Part shown: piece by piece, positions 10,105-32,884 of the stretch
How the letters are laid out: every line of letters starts with the position of its first letter
Numbering within the stretch: the stretch's first letter is position 1
DNA from: Isoetes taiwanensis
Taxonomy: Eukaryota > Streptophyta > Lycopodiopsida > Isoetales > Isoetaceae
Length of the DNA stretch: 64,000 bases
Assembly: GCA_021234155.1 (NCBI GenBank)
Contig: JAJEKV010000034.1
Coordinates: forward strand, 4,209,491 to 4,273,490
Reading direction: 5' to 3'
Notes under the pieces: model-generated
The model's input: the letters and a program-made list of their open reading frames with translations, nothing else
Databases searched by the model: none
What the model was told of the DNA's origin: nothing
Position numbers and translations under genes: made by a program

Positions 10105-11283
10105 TTTTTTTTTTGCCTCTTAAGCCTCTAGGAGACGAGTCCCGGGGATGGAGCGGGGAGGCCGGGCAAAGATGGCTCACCATGGTAGAAAGCTAGAAAT
10201 CAATGAAGGCTAGAAGGAAGAAAGGATTGGCGGTTGAAAGAATGGAGGGTTTCATGCATGCAAGGTTTCTTATAGGCGCGGTTGTAATTATGATTCCATC
10301 ACATCATACAAGATTTATATCCTATACCTAATTAGCTATCATTAGTTCTATTGAATTAATTACGCCCTAGGTTATCATTAATTCTCTATAGAATTACCCA
10401 CATGTCAGCTATACTTAAAACCTATGTTTTCATTAATTTTGTATAATTACCTAGACCCCAACTATACTTACAACCAACTTTGGCCCATCTCGATTTACGA
10501 CCTATACTTACCTCATTAGTACTACTAGCATACACCCTATGTTAATTTTGCAATAATTACCTACACCTAAGCTATACTTACAACCTATTTTTTTTGGCTG
10601 CACTTACAACATATATTTGTCCATTTAATGGTTTTTGGTATTTCTTAAAGTTCCTTTAATCGGTTCTCAAAATTACTTTGTCCTTTTTTTTTAGAACTAA
10701 TATTAAGACATTTCACTTTATATGGGTGAAGCGTGTGGATCCTAAAAAGGGTAAAAATGTAATACCTATCCCCCCAACATGTTTCAACATTGTTACCACA
10801 TGTTCTTATCACATTGTTACCCCATTGTAAACATTGTTCTTGTAGGTCAATGCTGTGGACCACCCAAAGGGTGTTGAGGCTGAGACTACTAAGCAAATTA
10901 TCCTCTGATGAGGTTGGATTGGAAGAATAAGAAGGTGAAACCGAAGCACCAATGCAATAAGGAGCTAGTAGGTGAAGGAACTATCATACTAGCTGATCCT
11001 ATCCAGGCTGTCAATGATGAAAGGTTAGGAGAGGATAAAGTGGGTGTGGCCATAACAAGTTTAGAGGAAAAATGGAAGGAAAAAGGATCAAATCACCGTG
11101 ATTGCAATCGCTTGTATTAAACAATTGGAGGTTCCATGCATCATGCCATGGCCTATAGCCCCGCATTGAGTTTATAGGAGAATTCCTTTTACCGAGCGGA
11201 GGTTGTGGATGACACCGATTTTCTTAATGCACCTCCAATAGGCTGCCAGGACCACATTTTCGAGAGAAGAGGGCACACTTTCG
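10105..11283. other. Repeat-rich AT spacer, no confident gene
   Basis: Between 10,300 and 10,620 imperfect repeats of phrases such as ACCTA(C/G)AC and CTATACTTACAACC recur at roughly 100-bp spacing. A short plus-strand open stretch at 10,908-11,120 lies just upstream of the transposase-like pseudogene and might be its decayed 5' part, but no motif supports this. Confidence 0.4.
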
Positions 11284-13699
11284 GTGGTGAAACATTATCC
11301 TAGCAAGAGGTCCAAGTCAAGTAGTGATTGTTCACGTGAAGCTCTGACTAAGGTAAGGGGAATGGAATGTTGTTGGGCTAATTGTGTTCAGAAGTTTGAA
11401 ATTGATGAATTGGTGGAAGCAAGAGCCACCTTCCAAGAGTATACTTGTGATGAGAGGAGGACTTACATGTACTCTATTCATGAGCTTGCACTTCAAGATG
11501 AAAAATTCCCAAAGAAAAAAAAATACCCACTGCTAGGGACATGGATATGTAAAGTTGCATGGATACATATTCATGGCATTCCAATTTCATCTTGGCAAAA
11601 TTGGCAAGCACGTCATGCAAAGGGGAGTAAAATTGCATTACATGGAAATAATGGCATGTTGAGGACAACTTCTAGGATCCTGGCTGCTAGGGAGGTTTTT
11701 GAAAAATATGTTGAATTCAATGCTGAGAATATGCCACATAAAAGTAGGAAAGATCAACAGGGAAAAATAGTTGTCGAGAAGAGATTGCCATCCCATTGTA
11801 CCCGAGAAGAGCATATTGGAGGAAGTGAATGCTTTGCTTCGAGAACTACAGGTACCTGCAATATCTCAACCCAACTTTCAGAGACTATGGAGCAAGCACT
11901 TCAAGCATGTCACTATAGACACTTCGAACAACTTTGCAAAGTGCAACTTGTGTGCTAAGTTGAAAGAGATTCTTGATAAGACCAAGCAACCAAGCCAAAG
12001 GGCTAAGATAAGGGAGCAAATGAAAGATCACATGACAGACCAACTATCATGTAGATCCACTTATTGGATGTGGAGAACATTATCATGTTTGGAACCCAAT
12101 AACTATGTTTGTATTATACATGACAAGATGGATCAATCGAAGACTTGTTTGCCACAAGATAGTTACATACCCAAGCAAATCAATAGAGCTTATCCTTTGC
12201 AAGTCTCTCCGACAGTGCAATAGTGCATGGCTCGGTGCCAATTTATTATGGCCATTTTAGTTTGCAATTGTGGAGTGATGGTCCTGATTTTCATATTGGA
12301 AGTGTGATGAGGTGCTTGAGGAACTATGAGAGTGGTTATTCTGGTGACCTCCACAACCCTGGAGATGGTAGCCAACCACTCTTCAAAGGCATTGTTGGAT
12401 AGAAAGCCTAATAATTTAGAGAAGTTTACTAAGGCAAGGTTTAGGAAGTCAGGTGCTTCTGAACATGTTGGAGCCTCAAGTTTACGTCCCCAACCTCGAG
12501 ATCTACCACCAAGGTTCCTCCTCCAACTTGACAATTGTCTTTGAATGAGAATAAAAAACATTATATGTTCTCATTCCTATCTTATTTAACAGCCGTGGGT
12601 GTCTTTGAAAGAGTGAATTTAGGGTTCTTAATGCCCGGACATACTCATGAGGATGTGGATGCATTGTTTGGGAAGTATAGTGCGCAGTTGAAATCTCAAA
12701 CTGTGACCAATCTTCCTAGACTAATGGAAGTTCTTAGTGAATGCATTTCACCTTCTCCTATAGGGTTGATCATACAAGAGATGCCTGATTGGAAGAATTT
12801 TATCAAGGTTATGCTCTTGATATGGAAGGTCAATCTAGACCTCTTCAAGACACTTTTCTCGGGTCATGGGAAATAAGCCAATCATGCAATGGAAGATGAG
12901 ACCTTCGATGATAAATGGAGGCCGATGAGGGAGTACCTATATGGCACGAAGATGAAAATGGTAAACCTAAGATTCCAAGGGGTTAACTAAAAGCTCTTAA
13001 GCCTTTTCCAGAGGTGGATTCATTGCAAAGCACATTGGACGGCATTTCTGAATACATCAAGTATTGGAAAAATAACCCCTGATACCAACCTTGCATTGAT
13101 AGATTATTGGACACGTACATGGATTATTGGGACAAGTAGACACATCCTCGATGAACTCAAAGATGGATGGCTACCTAAGACTAGGTGGAGAGACTTGATA
13201 TTACCCGAGGAAGCCGATGATGTGGTTAGTAGTATTCGCAAGTCCATGGCTCCTCCAAATTTAAAAACACTATGTTGGTCCTAGGAAAGGAAGGCCTAAT
13301 ATCTCGGGCTGGAGGATTATGATCCCAAAGATGACTTGCTTTGCCATCAATTTGCACTTATAGTACCAGAGCGCAAAGAGATATACCCTGTGTGGATGGG
13401 TTACACCATCTCAGAGGTTTGCAAAGAAGTAGGTGACCGCAATGTGAACAAAGTTCGTGTGGAGTGGTGGTGTCCAATTACCCGCTTAAATGCAAGGGCG
13501 AGGAAGAAAAAGGTATAGAGACTGTTGGACAAAGAGATGGAAGAGAAACCCTATTGAAGGGGATGATTGGGTTGAGTTAGATACTATTTTATTTTCATGG
13601 ACCCCAAAGGTCATCCCAGGCAAGACTGCTAGGGTTACAATACCTGTGGAAGTGAGGAAGAAAGCTATGATATCTCTAGGGGTCACTTCTGAGAAGTAA
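11284..13699 (+). pseudogene. DUF7869-type transposase-like gene, decayed (copy 1)
   Basis: Segments at 11,284-11,958, 11,771-12,223, 12,535-12,876, 13,096-13,284, 13,336-13,518 and 13,490-13,699 spell one long protein through several frame changes. In order: a Cys-rich start (ECCWANC), EARATFQEYTCDERRTYM, ICKVAWIHIHGIPISSWQ, a CNLCAKLKEIL metal-binding-like pair, IIHDKMDQSKTCL, LLQLDNC, then NENKKHYMFSFLSYL and GFLMPGHTHEDVDALFGKYS, and a C-terminal part with PVWMGYTISEVCKEVG. The HDKMD, LQLDNC and GHTHEDVD stations resemble acidic residues of an RNase H-like fold, as in the C-terminal domain I know as DUF7869. A frameshift falls directly after LQLDNC and stops follow 12,876, so it is not functional. 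The paralogue at 24.96-26.88 kb keeps the same order. Confidence 0.65.
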
Positions 13700-20689: not shown

Positions 20690-23611
20690 CGCCCAACACA
20701 AACCATTATATCCAAATGCAAAAATTTCTCGTTTGGCGGCATGCCTATTGATTATTAATCGCCAACACAAATTCGGATGGAGCATCAATAGTGTTTCAGA
20801 ATTATTCAAGTAAGGTTTTTTTTCTTCTTTTGGGTATTGCTATTTATATTAATTGCAAATAGTTGCATGTTAACTTGGTATTTTGTAGTTTGTTAGGGGA
20901 TATTCTACCAGATGGGCATTGCCTTTTGAGGGATAGACGAGATGCATATAAATGTTGAAGTCAACTAGGATTGGAGTATAACTCCATCCACGCATGCGTT
21001 AATGATTGTATTCTCTACCGCAATGACTATGCAAACTTGGAGACTTGTCCAAAATATGATGAGCTTAGATACGATGTTCAAATGAAAACTGCAGGAGTTC
21101 CAAGGAAGGTCTTGCATCATATGCCATTGATACCAAGGTTGCAAAGGGTTTCGGTGCCTAACACTTAGTGCACTTATGGAGTTCCATTCAAAGCATCAGA
21201 GCACAGATGGAGTTTTACGATTGATAGTTGATGGTGAAGTGATGAAACATATTGAGGACAAGTAGCCAATGTTCAAAACAGAACCAAGGAACTTGCGTCT
21301 TGCCATTGGTTTAGATGGAGTTTGTCCATTTTGTCACATGTCTTCAAGTCATAGTGTGTGGTCTGTTGTCGTAGTGATTTATAACATCCCTCCCTGGATG
21401 GCAACAAAAGCGGGGCACCTCATGTTGACACTTATTGTTCCAGGTATATATCAATGTCAATCCAAGTATTATATATGCAATGGCAATACATATCTTCTAA
21501 CTCATTTCAAATTAGGCAAGTATCAAGTAAAAAATATGGATGTAATACTATGGAAAGGGATCCAAATGCATGATATAACTAGGTCGCCTCAGGCATTTAC
21601 CTTTCATGCTATATGTTGTTTCACCATTCATGACTACCCAGGATTTGGCGATGCATTAGGTGTATTATATATTATACATATTATAAATTTGTATGCTAGG
21701 CTATATCCTTTGATGATTGTATAGTTTTTCTCATCTTTCATTTCTTAATGCATAGGTTTGCAAACAAGTGGAAAGTTTGGATGTCCTTCATGTGGAGTCG
21801 AGTTGCCATCTTATCGATCGAAGCACTTATATAAGCAAATATATCATGGCCATAAAAAATATTTGCCACTTGCACATCACGTGCGTGGATGTATAAACAC
21901 TGGAAAACCAAGAAGAAGAACTCCCAAGGATTGGTTAGATACTTTGGTAGAAGCTCGTAGATCCCAAGATTTGACTGATGATAGTTTGGTGGTTGCACCC
22001 CCTGGTATGAAACGACTTTCCATTTTCTACAGAGAATACTGGTCACAACTAAAAATTGTACACTTGCTCGACCCCATGCATATCTTTAAAAATGTCAGCC
22101 ACTCATTATAGAGACATTTAATTGGTGATTGTGATACTTTAGCTAGTAGAAATGATTTGAAGGATCAAAATATAATGCTGCAATGATGGCCACCACAAAA
22201 TGGACGAAAGTGCAAAAGTGCACTTTGGGTACTAAGCAAGAAAGAGGAGAACCAAGTCAAACAGGTTATATCTAGTATGAGAACACCCACGGGTTATGGT
22301 GCATCCTTGCATACAGCATTCACCAGAGATGGTGAGCTTAAGGGATTGAAGACACACGATTGGCACAAGTTTCTACAAGTAAGTATTGAATTCCTTTTGT
22401 ACATATATAAAATTGCATTTAGTTATTACATACATTTTGCATTTGTTGCAGCATGTTCGACAATGCATTAGTTCAATTTTGATACCAATATTTGCTTTTT
22501 ATTTTAGCATGTTCTACCATGTGCAATAGATAACTGCCTGACACCAAAATACGAGATGTCATTTATCGGTTGGGAAAGTTTGCAGGGTACAAAACTTATG
22601 ACTTGTTAGTTCATTATGTGAAATTGTGTTAATAGCAATATTATGCGTCACAGGTGGGTTTCCTGAAAGGAAATTAATGTGTCTGGTATATAAAAAATGG
22701 AGGTTGAAGTTGTTGAATTATTATGCATCTTAGAGCGAGATTTTCCTACCAGCTTTTTTGATCTTCAACTACATCTTTTGATACATCTCTCAGAGGAGAT
22801 TCGCTTGGTTGAGCTAGCTCGACATTGAATGTCTTTTTGGAACGGTATATGAAAGTCTTAAAAGGTTTTGTTCGTCAAATGGCTAGACTAGAAGGATGTA
22901 TGGCAGAAGGGCATTTGGTGCAAGAGATTCTTTTCTTCATGATTGATGCCACCACATCAATACAAGGGGATGCTCCACATATATGGAAGAAAGAGCAACG
23001 TATGGAGGATATAGGAGAAGTTCTTGAAGGCCTTGGCGTAGAACACAGATAAACAAGTTTGTGATGGCAAATTGTGATAGCTTAGATCAATGGCGAGAAA
23101 AGTATGAGATTGCACAAAAAAAATGATGAGAATGATGGAACACACCAAGTCCTAGCAAAAAGATCTCGACATGGAAAACGTTCAAAGGTCACAAGTACTG
23201 CATCTAAGAAGTTGTCTAATATCATGCCATGTGCGTAATTAATATGTCAGATGGAAGAGGAGCAAGAGAAGGGGATTGAAATTTGTCCAGACGACTATAA
23301 TGTAGCAATTGGATGTTCAAGAAAGGTACATTGCAATTGTTTGCACTATGTTTTCATTTTTTGTTGATCATGATAATAACACATATGCATTGCAGGCAAG
23401 ATTCCACACATCCATTTGGGCATACGGTCAACATTTTCGTGTCGCGAGCATTGACAAGGGTAGGGTTACATATGATTGTGGCATTGCAGCATGTTTTGAG
23501 CAAAAGAGTCAAGCATCTACCAGAGACACTCAGCCCGTAGACAGTGATCTCAATTATATTGATCAAATAACAGACATTATTGAAGTTAATTTTCGTTCCT
23601 TCAAAGTGAAT
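20690..23611 (+). pseudogene. CACTA (En/Spm) TNP2 transposase, core region
   Basis: Segments in order match the TNP2 plan: LYPNAKISRLAACLLIINRQ with FGWSINSVSELF; LLGDILPDGHCL; YNSIHACVNDCILYRNDYAN followed by CPK (the Cys motif); VLHHMPLIPRLQRV; TEPRNLRLAIGLDGVCPFCH followed by MSSSHSVW; YNIPPWMATKAGHLMLTLIV followed by PG; CPSCGVELPSYRSKH; LKIVHLLDPMHIFKNVSHSL; and the DUF4218 stretch ERYMKVLKGFVRQMARLEGC. The last part (VDSDLNYIDQITDIIEVNF) is the start of the DUF4216 region. Several frames and stops, plus possible introns, show decay. The gene is cut at 23,611 by an 8-kb insertion and resumes at 31,697. Confidence 0.85.
23608..23611. repeat. Left GAAT target-site duplication
   Basis: GAAT directly precedes the left inverted-repeat end and is repeated after the right end at 31,693. 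In the CACTA gene it supplies the last base of a valine codon and the asparagine codon of SFKVN. Confidence 0.8.
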
Positions 23612-23659
23612 AAGCATGATTTCATTAATTGGAGAAAATAACGCAATTTTGAGAATTTT

Positions 23660-24180
23660 AAGCACACCTAATTTGCTCAAGCACAAATACTTTCACCTAG
23701 TTCTCGAGCCCAAGAAACATGAGGTAATTAACATACACATATACATACAAATTATGTGTTATACTTGTACGTGTACATGATACTTGTAGAAGCCCAATAA
23801 TGGCCCTACATTCTACACCAATAATTCACATCAATAATTTTACTTCACTATAAAAATAGCTCGACTTCGGGGTAGAGGTCATTCATCTTCCATGGCTTCC
23901 TCGATGCCTCCCGAGCACATCCGATCTTTCAAGTGCTACTTGAGCTACAACAATCTGAACGAATGCGCTAGAAATGGTATTAATCTTGATCCATGGCTCC
24001 AATCTAAAGTGATGGTCCTGCTAGTGCTTGCAAGAAGCTCACTCATGTTGTGGTCCACATTTACTGGCTTCCAGATCAGGAGATCTATGAGCTGAATAGC
24101 ATCACGAGCTTTGGTGTTGATGATGAGTGAATCAGATACGCTAAGGATATAATAATGACATGAGTACCTATGAAGTATGT
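23660..24180 (+). pseudogene. Cassette copy 1: TATA box plus small ORF
   Basis: A TATAAAAA at 23,849 lies 43 bp before an ATG at 23,892. The reading starts MASSMPPEHIRSFKCYLSYN and runs to about LDPWLQSK. After one frame change it continues as KKLTHVVVHIYWLPDQEIYE and ends SITSFGVDDE-stop at about 24,130. The whole unit, including upstream words such as CTCAAGCACAAA and CAATAATTCAC, is repeated about 0.69 kb downstream. I do not recognise the protein. The conserved promoter-like spacing suggests a formerly expressed gene carried by the element. Confidence 0.45.
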
Positions 24181-24344
24181 ATTACAATCACCATTATCGC
24201 TGATGACTCTTTGTATTTGTTTATGATATAATAATGGTATGAGCACCTATAAACCATGTAAGGATGTAATAGCACAATGAATATTGTTTGATGTATCATA
24301 CCTGAGTGTAGTGTAAGGGTGTGCTCTTCGACTTCGGTATATAT

Positions 24345-24830
24345 CCAAGGGTCCTAATTTCAACCACACCCGAATTACTCAAGCACAAAACTTCTACCAT
24401 ATTAAAATCCACAAAACACGTTTTAAAAGCATACACATATCCATACGAAAAGATGTATTATACTTGTATGTATACAACTGCCTTATACACGAGCAATAAT
24501 GGCGGTAAAGTCTACCCCAATAATTCACCTCAATAATTCTACTTCACTATAAAAACTTCTCACCGGGGCTAAAGTTCATTCATCTCCCATGGATTTTTCG
24601 CCTTCATCGCCACACCACATCGGGCGATCAAGTGCTCAATGAGCCACTCTCGATCTTGTCGGTTGCCTAGACAGGGGTCTTCTTCTTGATCCCCACACGT
24701 GAAGAAAAGCTTTGAAAAGCCGAGATTCGTTGCCCTCGACCAATTAGTGTTATGATCCATCCGATTTGGCTTCCCGAGCGCCAATAGCTATGAGATATCG
24801 GGGATCACTACTACATTTGCCGATGATGAA
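24345..24830 (+). pseudogene. Cassette copy 2: diverged duplicate
   Basis: TATAAAAA at 24,548 lies 41 bp before an ATG at 24,589, matching the layout of copy 1. Shared upstream words are ACTCAAGCACAAA, TTATACTTGTATG, CAATAATTCACCTC and TACTTCACTATAAAAA. The coding part keeps a C-terminal reading ending SYEISGITTTFADDE-stop, alike to the end of copy 1, but stops interrupt the N-terminal part. The two copies are a tandem duplication of about 690 bp. Confidence 0.5.
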
Positions 24831-24959
24831 TGAATCACCTATTTAGCATTGTATAGTGTAAGAGCTCTTGTGTTGAGATGAAAAAATGCGAGGCGTAATG
24901 AATAATAACTAGTCTATTGTAACTTGCATGTTATATATGATATAGTAATTATGTAAAGG

Positions 24960-26880
24960 AGCATTGCCTACCTCAAGAGTTCTCATCATCGCCGTTAGCT
25001 TCTTTAGCCACTAATTCTTGCAACCCAGCCTCCACACTCACCGGGATCACCATCGATAACGGGTCTCTCTACGGCCCAACCATAGTCTATTGTTTTCAAA
25101 TGTTGGTAGCGTGGCGGGTCATTAGGATTGGGTCTCCAATTCTTGCTCCAAAGAAATCCCTATACTTTGCATTGCATATGAGGTTCCCTTTAAACGCAAC
25201 AGCTCAAACCAAGAGACAAACACCTCTTAAGTAATGTGGGAGATTAGGATCCTCTATTGGGTCCTCTTCGCAAAAAAGCCATCCACGTCGGCGCTTATCA
25301 TGTGGCCCGATTAGCAAGAGCATTCCTTTCTTGACATCTTGGTAGGGGTCGAATATCTCAACCGGGTTCTTGGGTCTACCCGAAAGGCCCTACGTAATGA
25401 GATGCTTCAATGTGCTCATCCACAAACACGTTTTGGGGTTCTTCCAATGCACTTTACACCGTTGGGCGAAATCTGAATAATGACTTCGGCCAGGGCTGCA
25501 CGTCCCCAAGCACTTTTCGCGGCAAAGGTGGACCAGTAGTCAATAACTTCATTCATATATGTGTTGGACCATGAGTTATCGCCAGAGAAATAGCTGCCCG
25601 GTGCATCATGTACTTGGCAATAGAAGCTCTCAATGCACCTATATCTTTCAAGCTCCCATATGGGCTGCCGCGACCTTAGGTGACCCTCTCTAATCATAGG
25701 TAAACCTTGGGCATCCTCCTTCCACATTCTGATTCCCTTTTCAGGAGCCACTCCTATGCCCCGGCCTCATCTTGTAGAACATTAGTGGCCATCCATCCTT
25801 CATGCAGAACTTGAAGAGTAGAGGTTCCAAGTGACCACATAAACGGTCCTTCTTATCAGGGATAAAACCTTTCACGAATTCCTTCCAATTAGGAACCTCT
25901 GACACAAGGTAAGGTGAAGGAGACTTTGAACTACACTGCCTGAAGAGTTGCATAAGCTCTGAAATAGTCAATGCATCTGATCATCTCATTAGAGTAGAGT
26001 ACTTTCCAAAGAGGGCACCTATGTCATCGTGGGTGTGTCCAACCATCATGAATCCCAGCTGAACTTGATCAAAGACACCTAACCAAACCAAGTATGACAA
26101 GTAAGAGAAAAGATATCTATTCTTATTTTGACCTGAGCAATTATCTAGCTGCAAGTAAAGCCTCCTAGGCAACTTGTTCGGTACCATGGGGCCTTTGTTA
26201 GGAGGCATAAAATCATTTCTACTGCCATTTACCATTTTTGTCCTAAGGGCATCTGTGTTTAAAATTGCTCCACCCCAGCTGCTTTCAGGACGATCTGTAT
26301 CTCTCAAATGGCCCCAATTATCCTCAGATTTATTCTCTAGTGTCTTCAAGGTATAATTCAAGGATCCCACATGAAAATTAGAATCATCAGGCCAGAGGTC
26401 CAGTGAGAAGTGGCCCAAGGCACCTATACCATGGCCGTGCATGAGAGCACCTGTAACACTCACCTTCAATCGTTCACCCCTCCATACAGACTTTGCTAGC
26501 TTTTCTAGACGAGGGACCATGGTCTTATTCTCGATCCATCTTATCATGTATAATGGTTAAAGCGTGCTCGGGGAGATCTATGAGACAAAGCTCTCGGGAC
26601 CGATAAAAGGCTCCTACATGAAATCTGGGCGTCGTATGTGATTTTCTCTCCATTGCAAGTACCCTTCTTTCATTTGGATCTCTGGTCTTAGCAAGCTTTT
26701 CCTTTATGACAATACAGGTGTTACACTTAGAAAATGCTATCCTCTTAGCTATTGCCACCTCTGAATGATTCTCTTTCCAAGCAGACAGAAATGACAAAGT
26801 CGATAAAGACCTCTTGTACGGATTGCATGCTTTTTGCTTAGGGTATTTTCGCACGGTCGCATTTATGGCCGGTAATCAAT
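24960..26880 (-). pseudogene. DUF7869-type transposase-like gene of the 8-kb element (copy 2)
   Basis: Read on the minus strand, the segments 26,525-26,854, 25,981-26,547, 25,741-25,971 and 25,416-25,751 follow in order. They show CNTCIVIKEKLAKTRD (a Cys pair), TIIHDKMDRE, GIGALGHFSLDLWPDDSNFH, RRLYLQLDNCSGQNKNRYLF, QVQLGFMMVGHTHDDIGALF with GKYS, then VPNWKEFVKGFIP. Toward 25,000 comes a C-terminal part with WRPNPNDPPRYQHLKTIDYG. The acidic stations HDKMD, LQLDNC and GHTHDD are intact and the central 188-residue frame is uninterrupted, so this copy is younger than the one at 11.3-13.7 kb. Frame changes at about 26,530, 25,975 and 25,745 may be indels or short introns. Its probable role is transposition of the host element. 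Confidence 0.7.
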
Positions 26881-27170
26881 AAAGCCAGCCGTACCCGTAA
26901 TTATCTGGCGGCGTGTAATTAATCGCCCCATGCGTCACGGCATCATTATGGGCGGCCGCGACAATCCACACATCATTATGCTTTCGGCGGGCATTTAATT
27001 TTCAGCGACCCGCGTTCCTATATAAATTAGGCCCGGCAATCTCATATCATCTCGAGGCGGTTTTTTAGCGACGCGATTTCTTGATTGCCTAAGCGCCGAA
27101 CTTCGCGGCGGCTTCAAGAACCTCCCTAAAACGACCGGAATTTTGTATTCAACCGGCGCCCGCGATCCCA
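26881..27170. promoter_or_regulatory. Divergent intergenic region inside the 8-kb element
   Basis: About 290 bp separate the minus-strand transposase gene from the plus-strand gene. It is GC-rich for this window, with TATATAAATTAGG at about 27,020 that could serve as a TATA box for the plus-strand gene, whose first ATG is at 27,171. A shared promoter region is inferred from the arrangement only. Confidence 0.4.
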
Positions 27171-29135
27171 TGGCACCTAAGGACTCCCTCAGAGAAGGTA
27201 AATTCTAAGATTTCAACTCAGCAAGATCGCCGCCGCGATCTTGCTTACTAGATTTTGTAATGTTTTGATTGCTATAGCTGCTCAGGAAGATCGCGGCCGC
27301 GGTCTTGCTGAGCATAGGTTTTCTTTTCTTGCCTTGCATTACTGCCACCCCAACAACGGCGCTGATGTTTGTGGAGTAATAGTATAGTAGCTCACCGGGG
27401 ATCGCGGCCGCGATGTTGGTGGCGATGGTATTATTTTTTGCCCCAGCTTAGCTGCTACACAACATCGTCGGCGATAGTGTGGATACTATAATAGTTGCAG
27501 AAAGATGCGCGGTCATCGGTTCTCTTGAGTAGTTTATACTTTTAGTTGTACAACATTATCGACCTATCGGGCACTCACCACGGATTTTGTTTACTGACCC
27601 TTGCTGTTTAGGTGGACCGGATGTCGAACCCATCCGTATTATAACCCCCTTCTAATGAACGCAAATGGTGTATAGAGATTGCACAAGCAATACCACACAT
27701 TAAAGGTGACCGCAGAAAGGACACATGCTGTTCTGCGCGACCGGAAACCCGAGGGCGTTGAACAAGTTGGCATAGTGGTGGCAATGTGGAAAGGCCTGAA
27801 AGAACAATGTGCAAGATGCTATCATATGCAGCATCGAGGACACACACCAATTGCAGTTCCTGGAGTACATTCTGAAATGGCGCAATTATGACCCATCTAT
27901 GATAACAGCCAGCAAAATGAACAAGCCAGCCACAGGGAAAAACATCCCAACATCAGCTAAGGGTTATGGCTGGGTGTTGCCATCTTATGAATCTCTCTCT
28001 TTCGGGTATAAAGGGAAAACAGAGACATCTTGGTAGGGTTCGGCATGCGAGAAATGGTTTGTCCACGACAAGAAGCCTTCGAGCTGTGCTTTGAAAGCAG
28101 TTCGGGACGAGAAAATGCCCTCGGTGATGGACACCAATTGGCTAAGAGCCGTGGCCAAGAAAAAAAGTGTGAAGCCAATTGCTACTTTGGGAGAGCCTTC
28201 AGCATCAAAAACAGTTGTTGAAGAACCACAATCCACGATAAACCCCTCCCAGATTATTAACCCTACTCTTCCTCTTGCTTTAAAGGCCCCAGATAGCACT
28301 ACATCTGGTGGATTTATTCCAAAAAAACTTACTACTTTCAAAATTAACCTTAGAAATCTGAACACTGACGATAGCCCACAGCCCAGCAGTTCTCAAACCC
28401 CCTTCGTTACATTAAAGCCTCCTCTAGACTAGCATTGATATGGCCACACGCTTTTGCCATTCCGTCGAGTTGAAGTTCAATCCCAAGAGGAACGCAAGAT
28501 GGCGAGCAAACCACTCAAAAGCTTGAGCAGTTTAAGCGGGTTTACCCCTTAGGGGTTAATTGGTTTACCAAGATTTCTATTTTTGATTGTGAACTGCACC
28601 GCAGCAAACTGACACAATCAATGCGATCAAATGACCATGTTCAAACTCTGGTTAAAAGCTTCAAGACATACCCAACGAGGGTCCTCACACCGGCGTCGTG
28701 CCATTTGACCCTATTACCAGGTAACTGATTCTTTATCTTTTGGGCACTCGTTGTTTAGATTTGACCTGATGGTTGTCTATTTTTCAGGAGGAGGGTGACA
28801 TGGAGCAATCCAGAGGAGTTAAAGGGCAAGAAAATTTACATTATTTACGCAACCCACGATTTTTCGCCGGCACAACTCCTTTGTTCTATTCGTCGGCCGG
28901 TTGGAGCAAAGAACTAGAATTTGCTAAAGTATATGCTAGAAGAAGATCGAGAGTGCTCAACGGAAATCTTACGAACAAAGGAATATATAGAGTTGAGTAT
29001 TCAATGCAACGAAGTAATTGCAAACACCGTCTACAGAGAGCCACTGATTGAAAAACTGCAACAACTTCGTCATCAACACAAGGCTTATGGCTGTCCTCCA
29101 CAAGGACCGATAGGGACTGCTACAACTTCAGCTTA
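27171..29135 (+). pseudogene. Divergent multi-exon gene of the 8-kb element, 5' and middle part
   Basis: A first exon starts MAPKDSLREG and meets a GT donor at 27,197. Later coding-like parts include ASKMNKPATGKNIPTSAKGY, MKAVRDEKMPSVMDTNWLRA, and FTKISIFDCELHRSKLTQSM followed by RSNDHVQTLVKSFK. One intron is well supported: GT at 28,721 and AG at 28,787 join VVPFDPIT-R to RRVTWSNPEELKGKKIYIIY followed by ATHDFSPAQLL. The arrangement SNDHV-x2-LV-x-SF...PTR...LKGKK-x-YII-x-ATH resembles a ParB/sulfiredoxin-like fold, a weak match. The exon ends with a stop at about 29,135 (KAYGCPPQGPIGTATTSA). Several frame changes show decay, so an intact product is unlikely. Confidence 0.4.
27225..27414. repeat. 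Recurrent ATCGCGGCCGCGAT palindromes
   Basis: The perfect 14-bp palindrome ATCGCGGCCGCGAT is at 27,401-27,414 and again at 29,167-29,180. Variants GATCGCCGCCGCGATC (27,225) and GATCGCGGCCGCGGTC (27,289) lie between, mostly in intron-like sequence of the divergent gene. Each is flanked by CTTG or CAAG words. Confidence 0.75.
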
Positions 29136-31150
29136 AAAGGTATTTATTCATTTTCTACTTGCCAATATCGCGGCCGCGATCTTGATGACCTTTGCTTCCG
29201 GGATTTCCATGAAATTGCAACGACCACTTTGAAAGTCGCGAGGAGCTTAAAGATGAAAAACAATTCATCTTTATGGATGAGAAGGTTTTCAAGAAGTTAA
29301 TGGAAGTTCTTGCGGACCGTGGGTGAACCGTAAGCTTCGGTGGCGACCATGGTGAGTTTTCTCGACAAGCCATCCAAAGACTTCTTTAACAAGACATGGC
29401 TCACAGTTTGCTACGAGGTATGTCGAATGCAGAGGTGTCACAGCTGCTCGATGAGATTATAGAAGGCAAGACGTATTTAAAGGTGCAGTCAGGGTATAGC
29501 GGGAGATTTGATTGCAAACAACGGGCAACTGACATCAGAACCCTAACTTTTATGAGGCGCGAAATTTTATCTTATGCCACAAATTTGCTGCAAAAGGATT
29601 TCGATAGGCTGGGAGGAATTGCTTCGGGCTTTTCCTGATTTGACCGAATGAGAGAATACTTGATATCGGTCGACACCGATCTGAGAAATGCGTGAAGGCT
29701 AACTATAACAAGGATCATACACTAGGTAACCTACACTGTAGCCTTTCCGAGCCAATCGAAATATTCTAAAGCCGAAGAGGCTAGAAAAAGAAAAGAAAAA
29801 GAAAAATATTGTCATAGCAGCGACAAATGATGGCATCCCTACTTCCTCCCAGTGTCAGAGAATGCCACATTGATATTTATTGACATCCGAGGGATGAACA
29901 AGGTATGGGATTGCAAGAAATACACAGACCTATTTACAAGGATAGCTACCATGATCAAGCTCTGTGAATTTGCCCAATTGCTTGTACAGTCCGAAGCAAA
30001 TTCAGGGAGGTGGCCACATGTCTTTAGGTTCTTATGAAGAAATGGGTTGGGAGAGCAAACGAAGGGTGAAAGAATATCAGTACTATATTAGTCATATGTG
30101 CATTAACAGGAGTGATGTTAAATTGTAGCACTTTGTGCAACCCGAAATGGAGCTTAGCCTATCTCCACCGCAAAGGCCAATGCCGCTAACAGGTAATGAG
30201 GATGCCGATGAGAAGATAAAAAAGAAGTTTCAAACTCTTTTTACAGGCAAACCAAGATACAAATGGGCGGCAATGGAAGGAGATCTTGTATTGAAATGCC
30301 GGTGAAAACCTCGTATGCTTATTATATTGTTGATCACCGGTGCCCAAACCCGATTTCGTTACGGATTTCTTTTTCGATTTGGGGCGACTTCTTCGTGTCG
30401 CTCTTATGCAAGGCAAAAAGAGCGTGGCCTTTGAAAGTTCAGGTAAAGTGTGTCGTTTCCTGAGGGCCTTCTTAGAAACGCTTGAGAAAATGGCCAGTCA
30501 AACTACGGGGGGATCTGAAGAAGAGGAGAAAGCAAAGAATGCAGAGCTTAATCCTTTGTTTGCCCAACATCGATATTACCCAAAACACGTATATATCGGG
30601 GTTGGATACCATTTTGGATAACCTCCGATGCTAAATCCTCACGAGGAGAGAATGCAAGAAACAAAAAGCTTGCTATTGAAGGCGGAAAAAAGGTATTGAA
30701 GCCCTCGAGCCCACTTTTCAAAAATTAAGTGCACTGAATGAGAAGATTGATGGGTACACGCCATTCTTGACAGGCGAACATAAGTTTGAATACATGGGCG
30801 TACAGCACATGGAAATAGACCAACAACACATGGAAACAGACCAACAGCACATGGAAACAGACCAAGATGAGGCTGTTGGGACACAAGAGCATCAGGTACA
30901 CTGCAAGAAGCATAAGCTCTTTCATCCACACGAGATTGCTACTCAATCGGAGAAGGAACTTATAGGCGTGAACAGTGCAGGGGAGAGTGAAAATGCGGAG
31001 CCTGATTCACATGTGGAGCGCATCGCAAAGGCCATAGGTGTTGAGATTCCAGAGGTCACAGGTTATTCAGAGATGGACACAACACAAACTATAGAATTGG
31101 GTAGAGCGCATGTCATTCGCATGGCCAATGAAATGGGTGTGATACGATAG
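29136..31150 (+). pseudogene. Divergent gene of the 8-kb element, 3' part
   Basis: Open segments continue on the plus strand: 29,225-29,327 (DHFESREELKDEKQFIFMDE), 29,396-29,638 (SNAEVSQLLDEIIEGKTYLK) and 30,340-30,621. The last is 30,767-31,150, a 127-residue end with three QHME(I/T)DQ repeats coded by 18-bp DNA repeats at about 30,808-30,866, an acidic middle, and a final stop. They may be exons of the upstream gene or separate small genes. I recognise no domain. Confidence 0.35.
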
Positions 31151-31692
31151 TGTATCTAAAACACAATCACAAGAATTATAATTGCATTCCTCAAGAATGA
31201 TTATCGTACATTACTTCCTTCAATGAAAATTTTTGTTTTAGGGAATATGTATTACCATATCTTTTGTCCTTACTACTACTTAGTGCATGTTTAATGTTAA
31301 AAATAATCGCGACTCATGGCAAATACATAGCTTTAAATACTGAAATGTTTGTGCTATGCTTGCTCCCTTTATACCTATTTTTATGCGTAAATGCTCTCAT
31401 ATGGTTTTAATAAAAAAGCTCATTATTTTGTCTCTTTTATGCCGAAAGATGGCGTTCGCGATTCTTGCGATAAGATAGAGCATTCCCTCCTACTACATTC
31501 TACTCACGATGGACCTTTGCATGAGCTGTAAAAAATATATTTCCGAACAACACCGAATCATTGGTAGAATTTGTACAAAAAAACGCCAACTTTTACTCAG
31601 TTGCTAGTAGTTTCTGCACTATATGGCTAACCACGAACCTATTTCATGCTAAACGAGAATTCCAAATTTCTCTAATTAATTAATTCATGCTT
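31151..31692. other. Right terminal region of the 8-kb element
   Basis: Non-coding AT-rich sequence between the last stop of the divergent gene and the right inverted-repeat end at 31,692. I see no ORF or internal repeat of note. Confidence 0.6.
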
Positions 31693-32230
31693 GAATGTTT
31701 TGAAGGCAAAGTATTTCAAAGCATCCTTCAATGAGGGAACATCCTTCAGGCTTTTATGAGGTGAACTCCACTTATTTCTTGAGAGACATGGATGAGCCTT
31801 TTATTTTTCCAAGGCAAGTTGAACAGGTTTTCTTTCATAAGAACCACAGAGATAGTGATTGGTGGATTGTGGTTCTGCGACTCCTACATCTCGTCGTATG
31901 ATCGATCCATTAATTTTGCATGATGATTCTTATCATGAAGTGAACCAGACAACTCCTCCTTCACTTGAGACTAATGAAGTAACCGATGATGAGATAGATG
32001 TTCCGGAACATGATATGGGTGACATGCAGAGTGCTCAATATGAAGATGATCAAGGTCCAGTTGAGGATGATGTGTTACCTTTGCGAATACAATCATTGCA
32101 TCATGTTGTTATAGATTATGCCATTGACGAGAATATTGAACAGGAAAGTGTGGCATCTAGAACTTGGAGATGATGAGTTGGAGGATATTGAAAAGGATAT
32201 AAGGGATGTGGAATCACTTTCTAGTTCTCT
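31693..32230 (+). pseudogene. CACTA TNP2, 3' part after the insertion
   Basis: Starting with the second GAAT, the strand reads VLKAKYFKASF. After a one-base frame change it reads SGFYEVNSTYFLRDMDEPFI followed by FPRQVEQVFFHKNHRDSDWW. This is the classic DUF4216 sequence (EPFI-x-ASQ-x-EQVF-type) near the C-terminus of TNP2-linked proteins. A further frame change leads to an acidic tail (EVTDDEIDVPEHDMGDMQS). The first residues continue exactly the frame that stops at 23,611, so this and the 20.7-23.6 kb region are one gene split by the 8-kb element. Confidence 0.8.
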
Positions 32231-32299
32231 ATGATAATTGTTTTTTCAAATGGTTATATCTAATCTAAATATATGTTCTTATGTTTGTTGCGCTTATCC

Positions 32300-32850
32300 G
32301 ACCGTTCATTCGAGATCCGACGACTCACGTGGCTTTGGGACGTATCCTACGGCCCAGATGCCTTGGGAGTTTATATATAGATCCGTATAGACGATCCTAC
32401 GGTCCAGGTTGATCTGATCCTGACCGTCGGTCCGAGATCCTACGGATCACGTTGCTTGGGGACATATCCTATGGTGCACATGGCTTTGGGAATTATATGT
32501 AATCAATCTAACAGCCCAGGTTGCTCTTGATCATGATCGTCGATCCGAGATCCTACGGCTCAGGTGGCTTGGCACATATCTTATGGTCCACATGGCTTTG
32601 GAAATTATATGTAATAGATCCTACGGCTCATGTTGCTTTCATATGGTGAGATCTCGATCGTTAATCGAGTCTAAGATCCTAAGGCTCATGTTGAATGAAT
32701 TATATGTAATAGATCCTGCGGCTCATGTTGCTTTCATATGGTGAGATCTCGATCGTTGGTCGAGTCTAAGATCCTAAGGCTCATGTTGCTTTCATATGGT
32801 GAGATCTCGATCGTTGGTCGAGTCTAAGATCCTAAGGCTCATGTTGAATG
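32300..32850. repeat. 58-bp tandem repeats, GATCCTACGGCTCA family
   Basis: GCTTTCATATGGTGAGATCT begins at 32,730 and 32,788, an exact 58-bp period over nearly identical units, with another copy near 32,634. To the left, more diverged units carry GAGATCCTACGG(A/C)TCA and TATCCTATGGT(C/G)CACATGGC. The block starts just past the end of the CACTA gene fragment. Confidence 0.8.
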
Positions 32851-32884
32851 CTCGTCCCTTAAGGAAAGGCTTTTAAAGTTTTTA

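Follow-up and report, generated by a model that had tools for sequence, protein, structure and literature searches.

A copy with an internal deletion from an abundant, probably Sola-like transposon family in Isoetes taiwanensis with a putative methyltransferase-like gene and repeated palindromic sites

Sola elements are described as DNA transposons with a DDD transposase, 4-bp target-site duplications and very variable ends, which occur in moss and are apparently uncommon in flowering plants (PMC10741241; this and the other published accounts cited here are represented by excerpts of their texts). Sola1 elements of the moss Physcomitrella have been listed, and Sola was also recorded in Capsicum (PMC9033089). 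The brown-algal element Sola1-1_Ec32 of Ectocarpus is 21.5 kb long, and its opposite-strand gene encodes a protein of 1104 amino acids (aa) with ParB-like and N4C/N6A methyltransferase domains (Dinatale et al., 2025, PMC12477816, citing Iyer, 2011 and Petroll, 2025). For methyltransferase-bearing algal DNA transposons of this kind, binding and modification of the element's own DNA were proposed (PMC12477816). Here, we analyzed a stretch of 64,000 bp from the lycophyte Isoetes taiwanensis (contig JAJEKV010000034.1; hereafter the window), in which an element of 8.1 kb interrupts a CACTA transposon. The element has an internal deletion and belongs to an abundant, probably Sola-like family of cut-and-paste plant transposons, which carries a DUF7869 transposase gene, a divergent second gene (gene 2) and a set of repeated palindromes.

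The family resembled Sola1-1_Ec32: both are large DNA transposons in which the transposase gene is accompanied, on the opposite strand, by an accessory gene with a methyltransferase or methyltransferase-like domain. The accessory protein of 1104 aa in Ectocarpus compares with 1,107, 1,116, and 1,112 aa for the summed conserved exon blocks of gene 2 in copies L021, L026, and L031, respectively. However, the host here is a plant, five copies measured 10.1–12.1 kb instead of 21.5 kb, the methylase catalytic motif was altered, and the ParB domain reported for the algal protein found no support. The excerpts of PMC12477816 mention no palindromic sites for Sola1-1_Ec32, whereas 5–11 were found per element in Isoetes. 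The Sola1 elements of Physcomitrella share with this family a plant host and the 4-bp duplications typical of the Sola superfamily; the DDD transposase, another trait of that superfamily, has a putative counterpart here (PMC9033089; PMC10741241). Two Sola traits were observed directly, namely a 4-bp duplication without fixed sequence (exact in 20 of 21 two-ended copies) and terminal inverted repeats (28 bp, 24 of 28 positions matching between the two ends). A Sola-like element was the best fit because of the duplication length, the presence of Sola1 in moss and, above all, the Ectocarpus Sola1 element with its opposite-strand methyltransferase gene. The two-gene Sola-like layout has already been published for Ectocarpus; the palindromes are the new point.

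The insertion between two GAAT copies inside the CACTA element was confirmed. The element occupied positions 23612–31692, and a 26-base end probe (up to six substitutions) found two places in the window, both of which were its ends. The two flanks, joined into a query of 326 bases, gave 40 scored matches in the genome (227 first-look candidates); two were the window's own halves, and the remaining 38 spanned the junction and represented empty sites. Two of the 38 (L074 and L075) were aligned, and both carried a single GAAT at a gap-free junction. The inverted ends and the flanking GAAT copies named in the original prediction were thus borne out. The restoration of the CACTA reading frame upon removal of the element, which it had also claimed, held locally. 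A 291-aa frame of the paralogue L074 ran uninterrupted through the empty-site junction. The restoration did not extend further because the interrupted CACTA copy had its own 17-bp deletion at 31727–31728 relative to L074 and L075, ~31 bp downstream of the junction. The host was assigned to CACTA because PF02992 Transposase_21 (tnp2) matched at 21266–21724, upstream of the insertion (E = 1.5e-25).

The element family is large and abundant in the genome (1,658,258,908 bases searched in 1,110 contigs). With up to three mismatches, the left end was found at 603 places and the right end at 392, and the reversed-pattern control gave 0 for each. Nine other copies were fetched, and both ends were located in seven of them and in the window, while c06 and c11 lacked a usable end pair. 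The left end was identical in type in eight of the nine. The duplications were GAAT, GCTC, TATG, GCAT, GACT, GAGT, and AAAG, exact in these seven cases, and the mismatched TTCT/TTAT in c07, which was the sole inexact pair of 21. A further 13 end pairs were picked by eye from listings of the two ends that covered a portion of the 603 and 392 places, pairs more than ~20 kb apart being excluded, e.g., on C279 and C701. All 13 showed an exact 4-bp duplication, and the same test at 3 or 5 bp gave 0 of 13. Copies with other ends or other duplication lengths were looked for; the same ends and the same 4-bp length recurred, while the duplicated sequence varied between copies. In c09 and c13, CATGCAT stood at the right end instead of CATGCTT. 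A frequent right-end variant, AATGAATTCATGCTT, may mark a subfamily, and GAATTCATGCTT stood at the end in 12 of the 13 further flank pairs.

The copies c07, c08, c10, c12, and c13 were 10,431, 12,114, 10,644, 10,309, and 10,145 bp long, respectively, and two shorter two-ended copies measured 8,823 bp (c05) and 8,106 bp (c09). The window copy was defective, with ~2.4 kb deleted and both genes frameshifted. The 8.1-kb element bounded by terminal inverted repeats that had originally been proposed stood in its ends and duplication, but it was neither full length nor equipped with whole genes. The observed/expected CpG ratio was 0.64–0.76 in the window element, c07, c08, c10, c12, and c13, compared with 0.57 elsewhere in the window, so these elements were no more CpG-depleted than their surroundings.

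A 191-aa DUF7869 piece of the window transposase gave 150 scored genome matches (10,511 first-look candidates), many of them stop-free, and open stop-to-stop frames reached 945 aa in c12 and 1019 aa in c13. The 1019-aa frame matched PF25273 (DUF7869) at E = 2.2e-41, which was its sole Pfam match at E up to 10. Ginger elements likewise make 4-bp duplications and have an integrase-type transposase (rve); no rve match accompanied that of PF25273, and Ginger was rejected. CACTA/EnSpm elements have CACTA-type ends and 2–3-bp duplications, and the inserted element, with AAGCATG ends and a 4-bp duplication, did not belong to them. The stretches LQLDNC and GHTH[DE]D[IV]D were conserved between the element and a transposase remnant elsewhere in the window (10947–13654), and HDKMD was read in both. 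We infer that the acidic positions in these three motifs form a putative DDD catalytic triad. Structure prediction of the 191-aa piece gave a mean predicted local distance difference test (pLDDT) score of 34.9. No relatives of the transposase were found in the prokaryotic or viral collections, its core had no credible match among the PDB sequences, and no mention of DUF7869 was found in the open-licence papers searched. The remnant at 10947–13654 derives from a second, distantly related transposase of the DUF7869 type, on the + strand in several frames and with ~30–36% identity to that of the element; no gene-2 match was found near it (E up to 1e-3).

Gene 2 comprised at least four conserved exon blocks (E1–E4) separated by short introns and was divergent from the transposase gene. 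The predicted arrangement, in which a gene for a DUF7869 protein and a multi-exon gene point away from each other, was recovered. With E4 as the query, 96 of 5,504 candidate places were scored and yielded 102 genome matches; identities went down to 60%, and many matches were open. For at least 21 gene-2 places, a scored transposase match lay no more than 15 kb away, and the two genes were divergent in all 21, as judged by eye among the matches listed. From the E4 matches, 13 gene-2 loci were chosen for few or no stops. Nine of 14 gene-2 loci were used to estimate the ratio of nonsynonymous to synonymous substitution rates (dN/dS), and two alignments (A1 and A2) contained six of the 14 each, mostly intact ones. 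In E4, dN/dS was 0.13–0.37 in the six of 36 pairs with unsaturated dS; the remaining 30 pairs were saturated. The simplest reading of these sequences is that gene 2 has been kept long by selection.

The role of gene 2, originally described as unknown, is no longer blank, as a methyltransferase-like domain and candidate DNA sites can be proposed for it. A tblastn search with the C-terminal part of one copy matched phage genes in 26 records, with gp66 of Gordonia phage Francois as the best (E = 5e-4). Among the 20 records listed of these 26, 16 were Gordonia phage methyltransferase genes and four were hypothetical genes at E ~3. One of six members matched PF01555 (E = 0.019), and in PHROGs two methyltransferase families came at E = 0.13 and 0.19, with families whose function is not known at 0.09–0.16. 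Comparison by hhalign with six phage proteins, which Pfam confirmed as PF01555 members, gave E = 9.2e-5 over 45 columns with a probability of 59%; six other phage methylases gave E = 8.4e-5 over 145 columns with a probability of 60%, and mismatched controls gave E = 0.25 and 0.5. The methylase alignment was centred on motif I (VIDFFSAGTASRVALMQGKRSVSLE), so that an S-adenosylmethionine (SAM)-binding motif I near the gene-2 C-terminus is moderately supported by tblastn and hhalign, and with it a methyltransferase-like domain. This C-terminal motif I region is shared with the phage PF01555 N4/N6 methyltransferases such as gp66. However, gp66 keeps DPPY, whereas gene 2 has D[MIFV]R[SG] upstream of motif I, at the DPPY position of beta-class enzymes (13 of 14 copies; L023 did not match the pattern) as well as long extra regions. 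Both parts of gene 2 lacked a credible match among the PDB sequences, and no relatives of the gene were found in the viral or prokaryotic collections.

A ParB-like motif was suspected in E3 (ISGNHS..AAQ), but profile tests gave it no support beyond a motif resemblance. Six phage proteins first taken for ParB–methylase fusions were methylases without a ParB match and became the second methylase reference; PF02195 had no match in 12 phage records. In ParB–parS and plasmid iteron systems, repeated palindromes or spaced arrays lie beside the gene of a DNA-interacting protein on a mobile element. The likeness to these systems is one of resemblance only, as the present case is a eukaryotic transposon without a ParB profile match, for which no partition function is proposed.

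The palindromes have the core ATCGCGRYCGCGAT, and GATCGCN4GCGATC (up to two mismatches) occurred 5–11 times in each of eight elements, compared with 0.15–0.2 expected per element (first-order Markov control, three elements simulated). The 55.9 kb of the window outside the element contained one weak match. Four regions of the elements held the sites: the surroundings of the transposase 5′ end, the stretch 5′ of gene 2, the E3–E4 interval, and the part separating gene 2 from the right end. In 56 sites from window-like copies the consensus was ~ATCGCG(G/A)(C/T)CGCGAT, and the outer A…T pair, which lay outside the search pattern, was symmetric in 93% of them and in 56% of 16 c13-like sites. Each of the 13 gene-2 loci chosen for few stops had at least one palindrome, and in several cases in L028, L029, and L032 neighbouring palindromes were 34 bp apart. 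Genome-wide, AGATCGCN4GCGATCT was found at 507 sites, compared with two for the reversed pattern. Four of these places were sampled by eye, and all four held sequence of the element family, two with ends only and two also with gene 2. At L083 (C223) and L084 (C195), palindromes lay near element ends with no detectable genes in 4 kb; these are perhaps non-autonomous derivatives, and both ends of such short derivatives were sought at the two loci and not found. L085, one of the two sampled places with gene 2, had been considered a very divergent lineage (37–42% identity) and was instead a decayed copy.

The E3–E4 intron was 63–69 nt long, and ATCGCN4GCGAT was exact in 11 of 16 copies and present with at most one mismatch in 14 of 16, many of the 16 being related and hence not independent. 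The exceptions were L028 with two mismatches and c07 with a one-base deletion; c10 was left out of the alignment, its E4 match not starting at residue 1. The palindrome was the main conserved block of this intron besides the splice sites, and much of the remainder varied. Since the intron palindrome was kept across lineages with saturated synonymous divergence, it is best read as a candidate protein-binding site, and the form AAGATCGCGGCCGCGATCTT may be the site of the gene-2 protein.

Taken together, the probable course of events begins with an intact-copy DUF7869 transposase that would cut at the AAGCATG ends and insert the element with a 4-bp stagger at varied sites. The gene-2 protein would bind the palindromes, which lie close to the two gene starts, within an intron of gene 2 and beside the right end; this binding may regulate or shield the element. 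Since DxR stands in place of DPPY, the protein is at least as likely to bind DNA and S-adenosylmethionine with no ordinary methylation as to methylate the element itself. We tentatively suggest a self-recognition system, in which a methyltransferase-fold protein, perhaps non-catalytic, binds a dedicated palindrome, so that the transposon would mark its own copies or protect them against host silencing and would also control the genes that it carries. Palindrome and gene-2 protein would then have been maintained jointly over a time in which the synonymous sites reached saturation between lineages.

Several results weigh against this interpretation. The choice of loci for few stops biases dN/dS toward constraint, and the Sola-like reading, though likely, draws on published descriptions of Sola elements. 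The tblastn matches came from a single query and represent one group of similar phage genes, the hhalign probabilities for a methyltransferase were ~60% and centred on motif I, and unrelated Pfam families scored similarly to PF01555 (PF16780 at 0.043 and PF05103 at 0.049, two members each). The gene-2 C-terminal region also had a PDB match at 6e-5 to a synthetic cytochrome trimer, which was considered spurious, as the stretch covered was short and lay upstream of these motifs of the methylase. For ParB, hhalign of the candidate region with six plasmid ParB-family proteins gave E = 0.33 with columns outside the motif, and searches in PDB, Pfam (six members), NCBIfam, and phage tblastn yielded nothing convincing. 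Finally, the catalytic [DNS]PP[YFW] was found in none of the 14 gene-2 copies (E4 segment), and the transposase or a host protein could be the palindrome binder instead of the gene-2 protein.

Four other explanations were considered. That the palindromes serve as transposase binding sites, for autoregulation or synapsis, with gene 2 as an accessory factor acting elsewhere, is conceivable and somewhat doubtful. It is compatible with the location of sites close to the two gene starts and to the right end, long open transposase frames have also been kept, and transposases of other plant elements (CACTA/Spm) bind subterminal repeats. However, the eight elements scanned had no palindrome within 3.6 kb of the left end, and one palindrome lies inside a gene-2 intron. 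Another explanation is that the gene-2 protein is catalytically active as an N4-cytosine or N6-adenine methyltransferase and thereby marks the element, a role that was proposed for the Sola1 gene of the brown alga (PMC12477816). The conserved SAM-binding-like motif, the phage methylase matches and the Ectocarpus precedent speak for it, but the replacement of DPPY by DxR makes catalysis doubtful, and we regard ordinary methylation as unlikely.

The transposase could also define a new superfamily with 4-bp duplications, as its long frame matched DUF7869 alone in Pfam (E up to 10) and no relatives were found in the prokaryotic or viral collections. The evidence does not need this, and it seems improbable, since the duplication length, the DDD transposase, the very variable ends and the presence in moss described for Sola (PMC10741241) and the similar two-gene, opposite-strand layout of the Ectocarpus Sola1 element (PMC12477816) already accommodate the family. 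A chance repeat or an assembly artefact is refuted by the empty sites, the hundreds of ends and the exact duplications, and nothing was found in its favor.

The features of the element in the window are collected in Table 1. Downstream of the interrupted CACTA gene, at 32280–32870, direct reading also revealed imperfect tandem-like repeats with a phrase such as GATCCTAAGGCTCATGTTGCTTTCATATGGTGAGATCTCGATCG.

Table 1. Features of the transposon copy in the window, in order of position.
Feature	Position	Strand	Remarks
Target-site duplication GAAT, left copy	23608..23611		Direct reading and empty-site comparison
Left terminal inverted repeat, 28 bp	23612..23639	+	Starts AAGCATGATTTCATTAATTGGAGAAAAT at 23612
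Left subterminal diverged direct duplication	23654..24692 (~23654-23898 + 24356-24692)		Also in other copies
Transposase remnant, DUF7869	24976..26812	-	Residues 333-945 of the c12 945-aa frame; frameshifts; N-terminal part deleted
Internal deletion junction	26797..26799		~2.4 kb missing relative to c07
Palindrome GATCGCCGCCGCGATC	27225..27240		5′ of gene 2
Palindrome GATCGCGGCCGCGGTC	27289..27304		5′ of gene 2
Palindrome GATCGCGGCCGCGATG	27400..27415		5′ of gene 2
Gene 2 exon block E1, first conserved, broken	27623..28243	+	
Gene 2 exon block E2, broken	28331..28701	+	
Gene 2 exon block E3, broken	28795..29139	+	Intact copies read ISGNHS..AAQ in E3
Palindrome between E3 and E4	29166..29181		Short intron in other copies
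Gene 2 exon block E4, broken	29202..31144	+	Putative methyltransferase-like domain in intact copies
Palindrome near right end	31448..31463		2 mismatches to GATCGCN4GCGATC
Right terminal inverted repeat	31665..31692	-	Inverted partner of left end, ending 31692
Target-site duplication GAAT, right copy	31693..31696		Direct reading and empty-site comparison

The excerpts of PMC12477816 name no target site for the methyltransferase-bearing algal transposons. The Isoetes family offers a candidate target for an element-encoded protein, a palindrome of 14–20 bp whose positions are given here and for which hundreds of copies are available for comparison, and the idea that such elements bind or modify their own DNA therefore becomes directly testable. 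With Isoetes as the host, the two-gene transposon layout is extended to a vascular plant.

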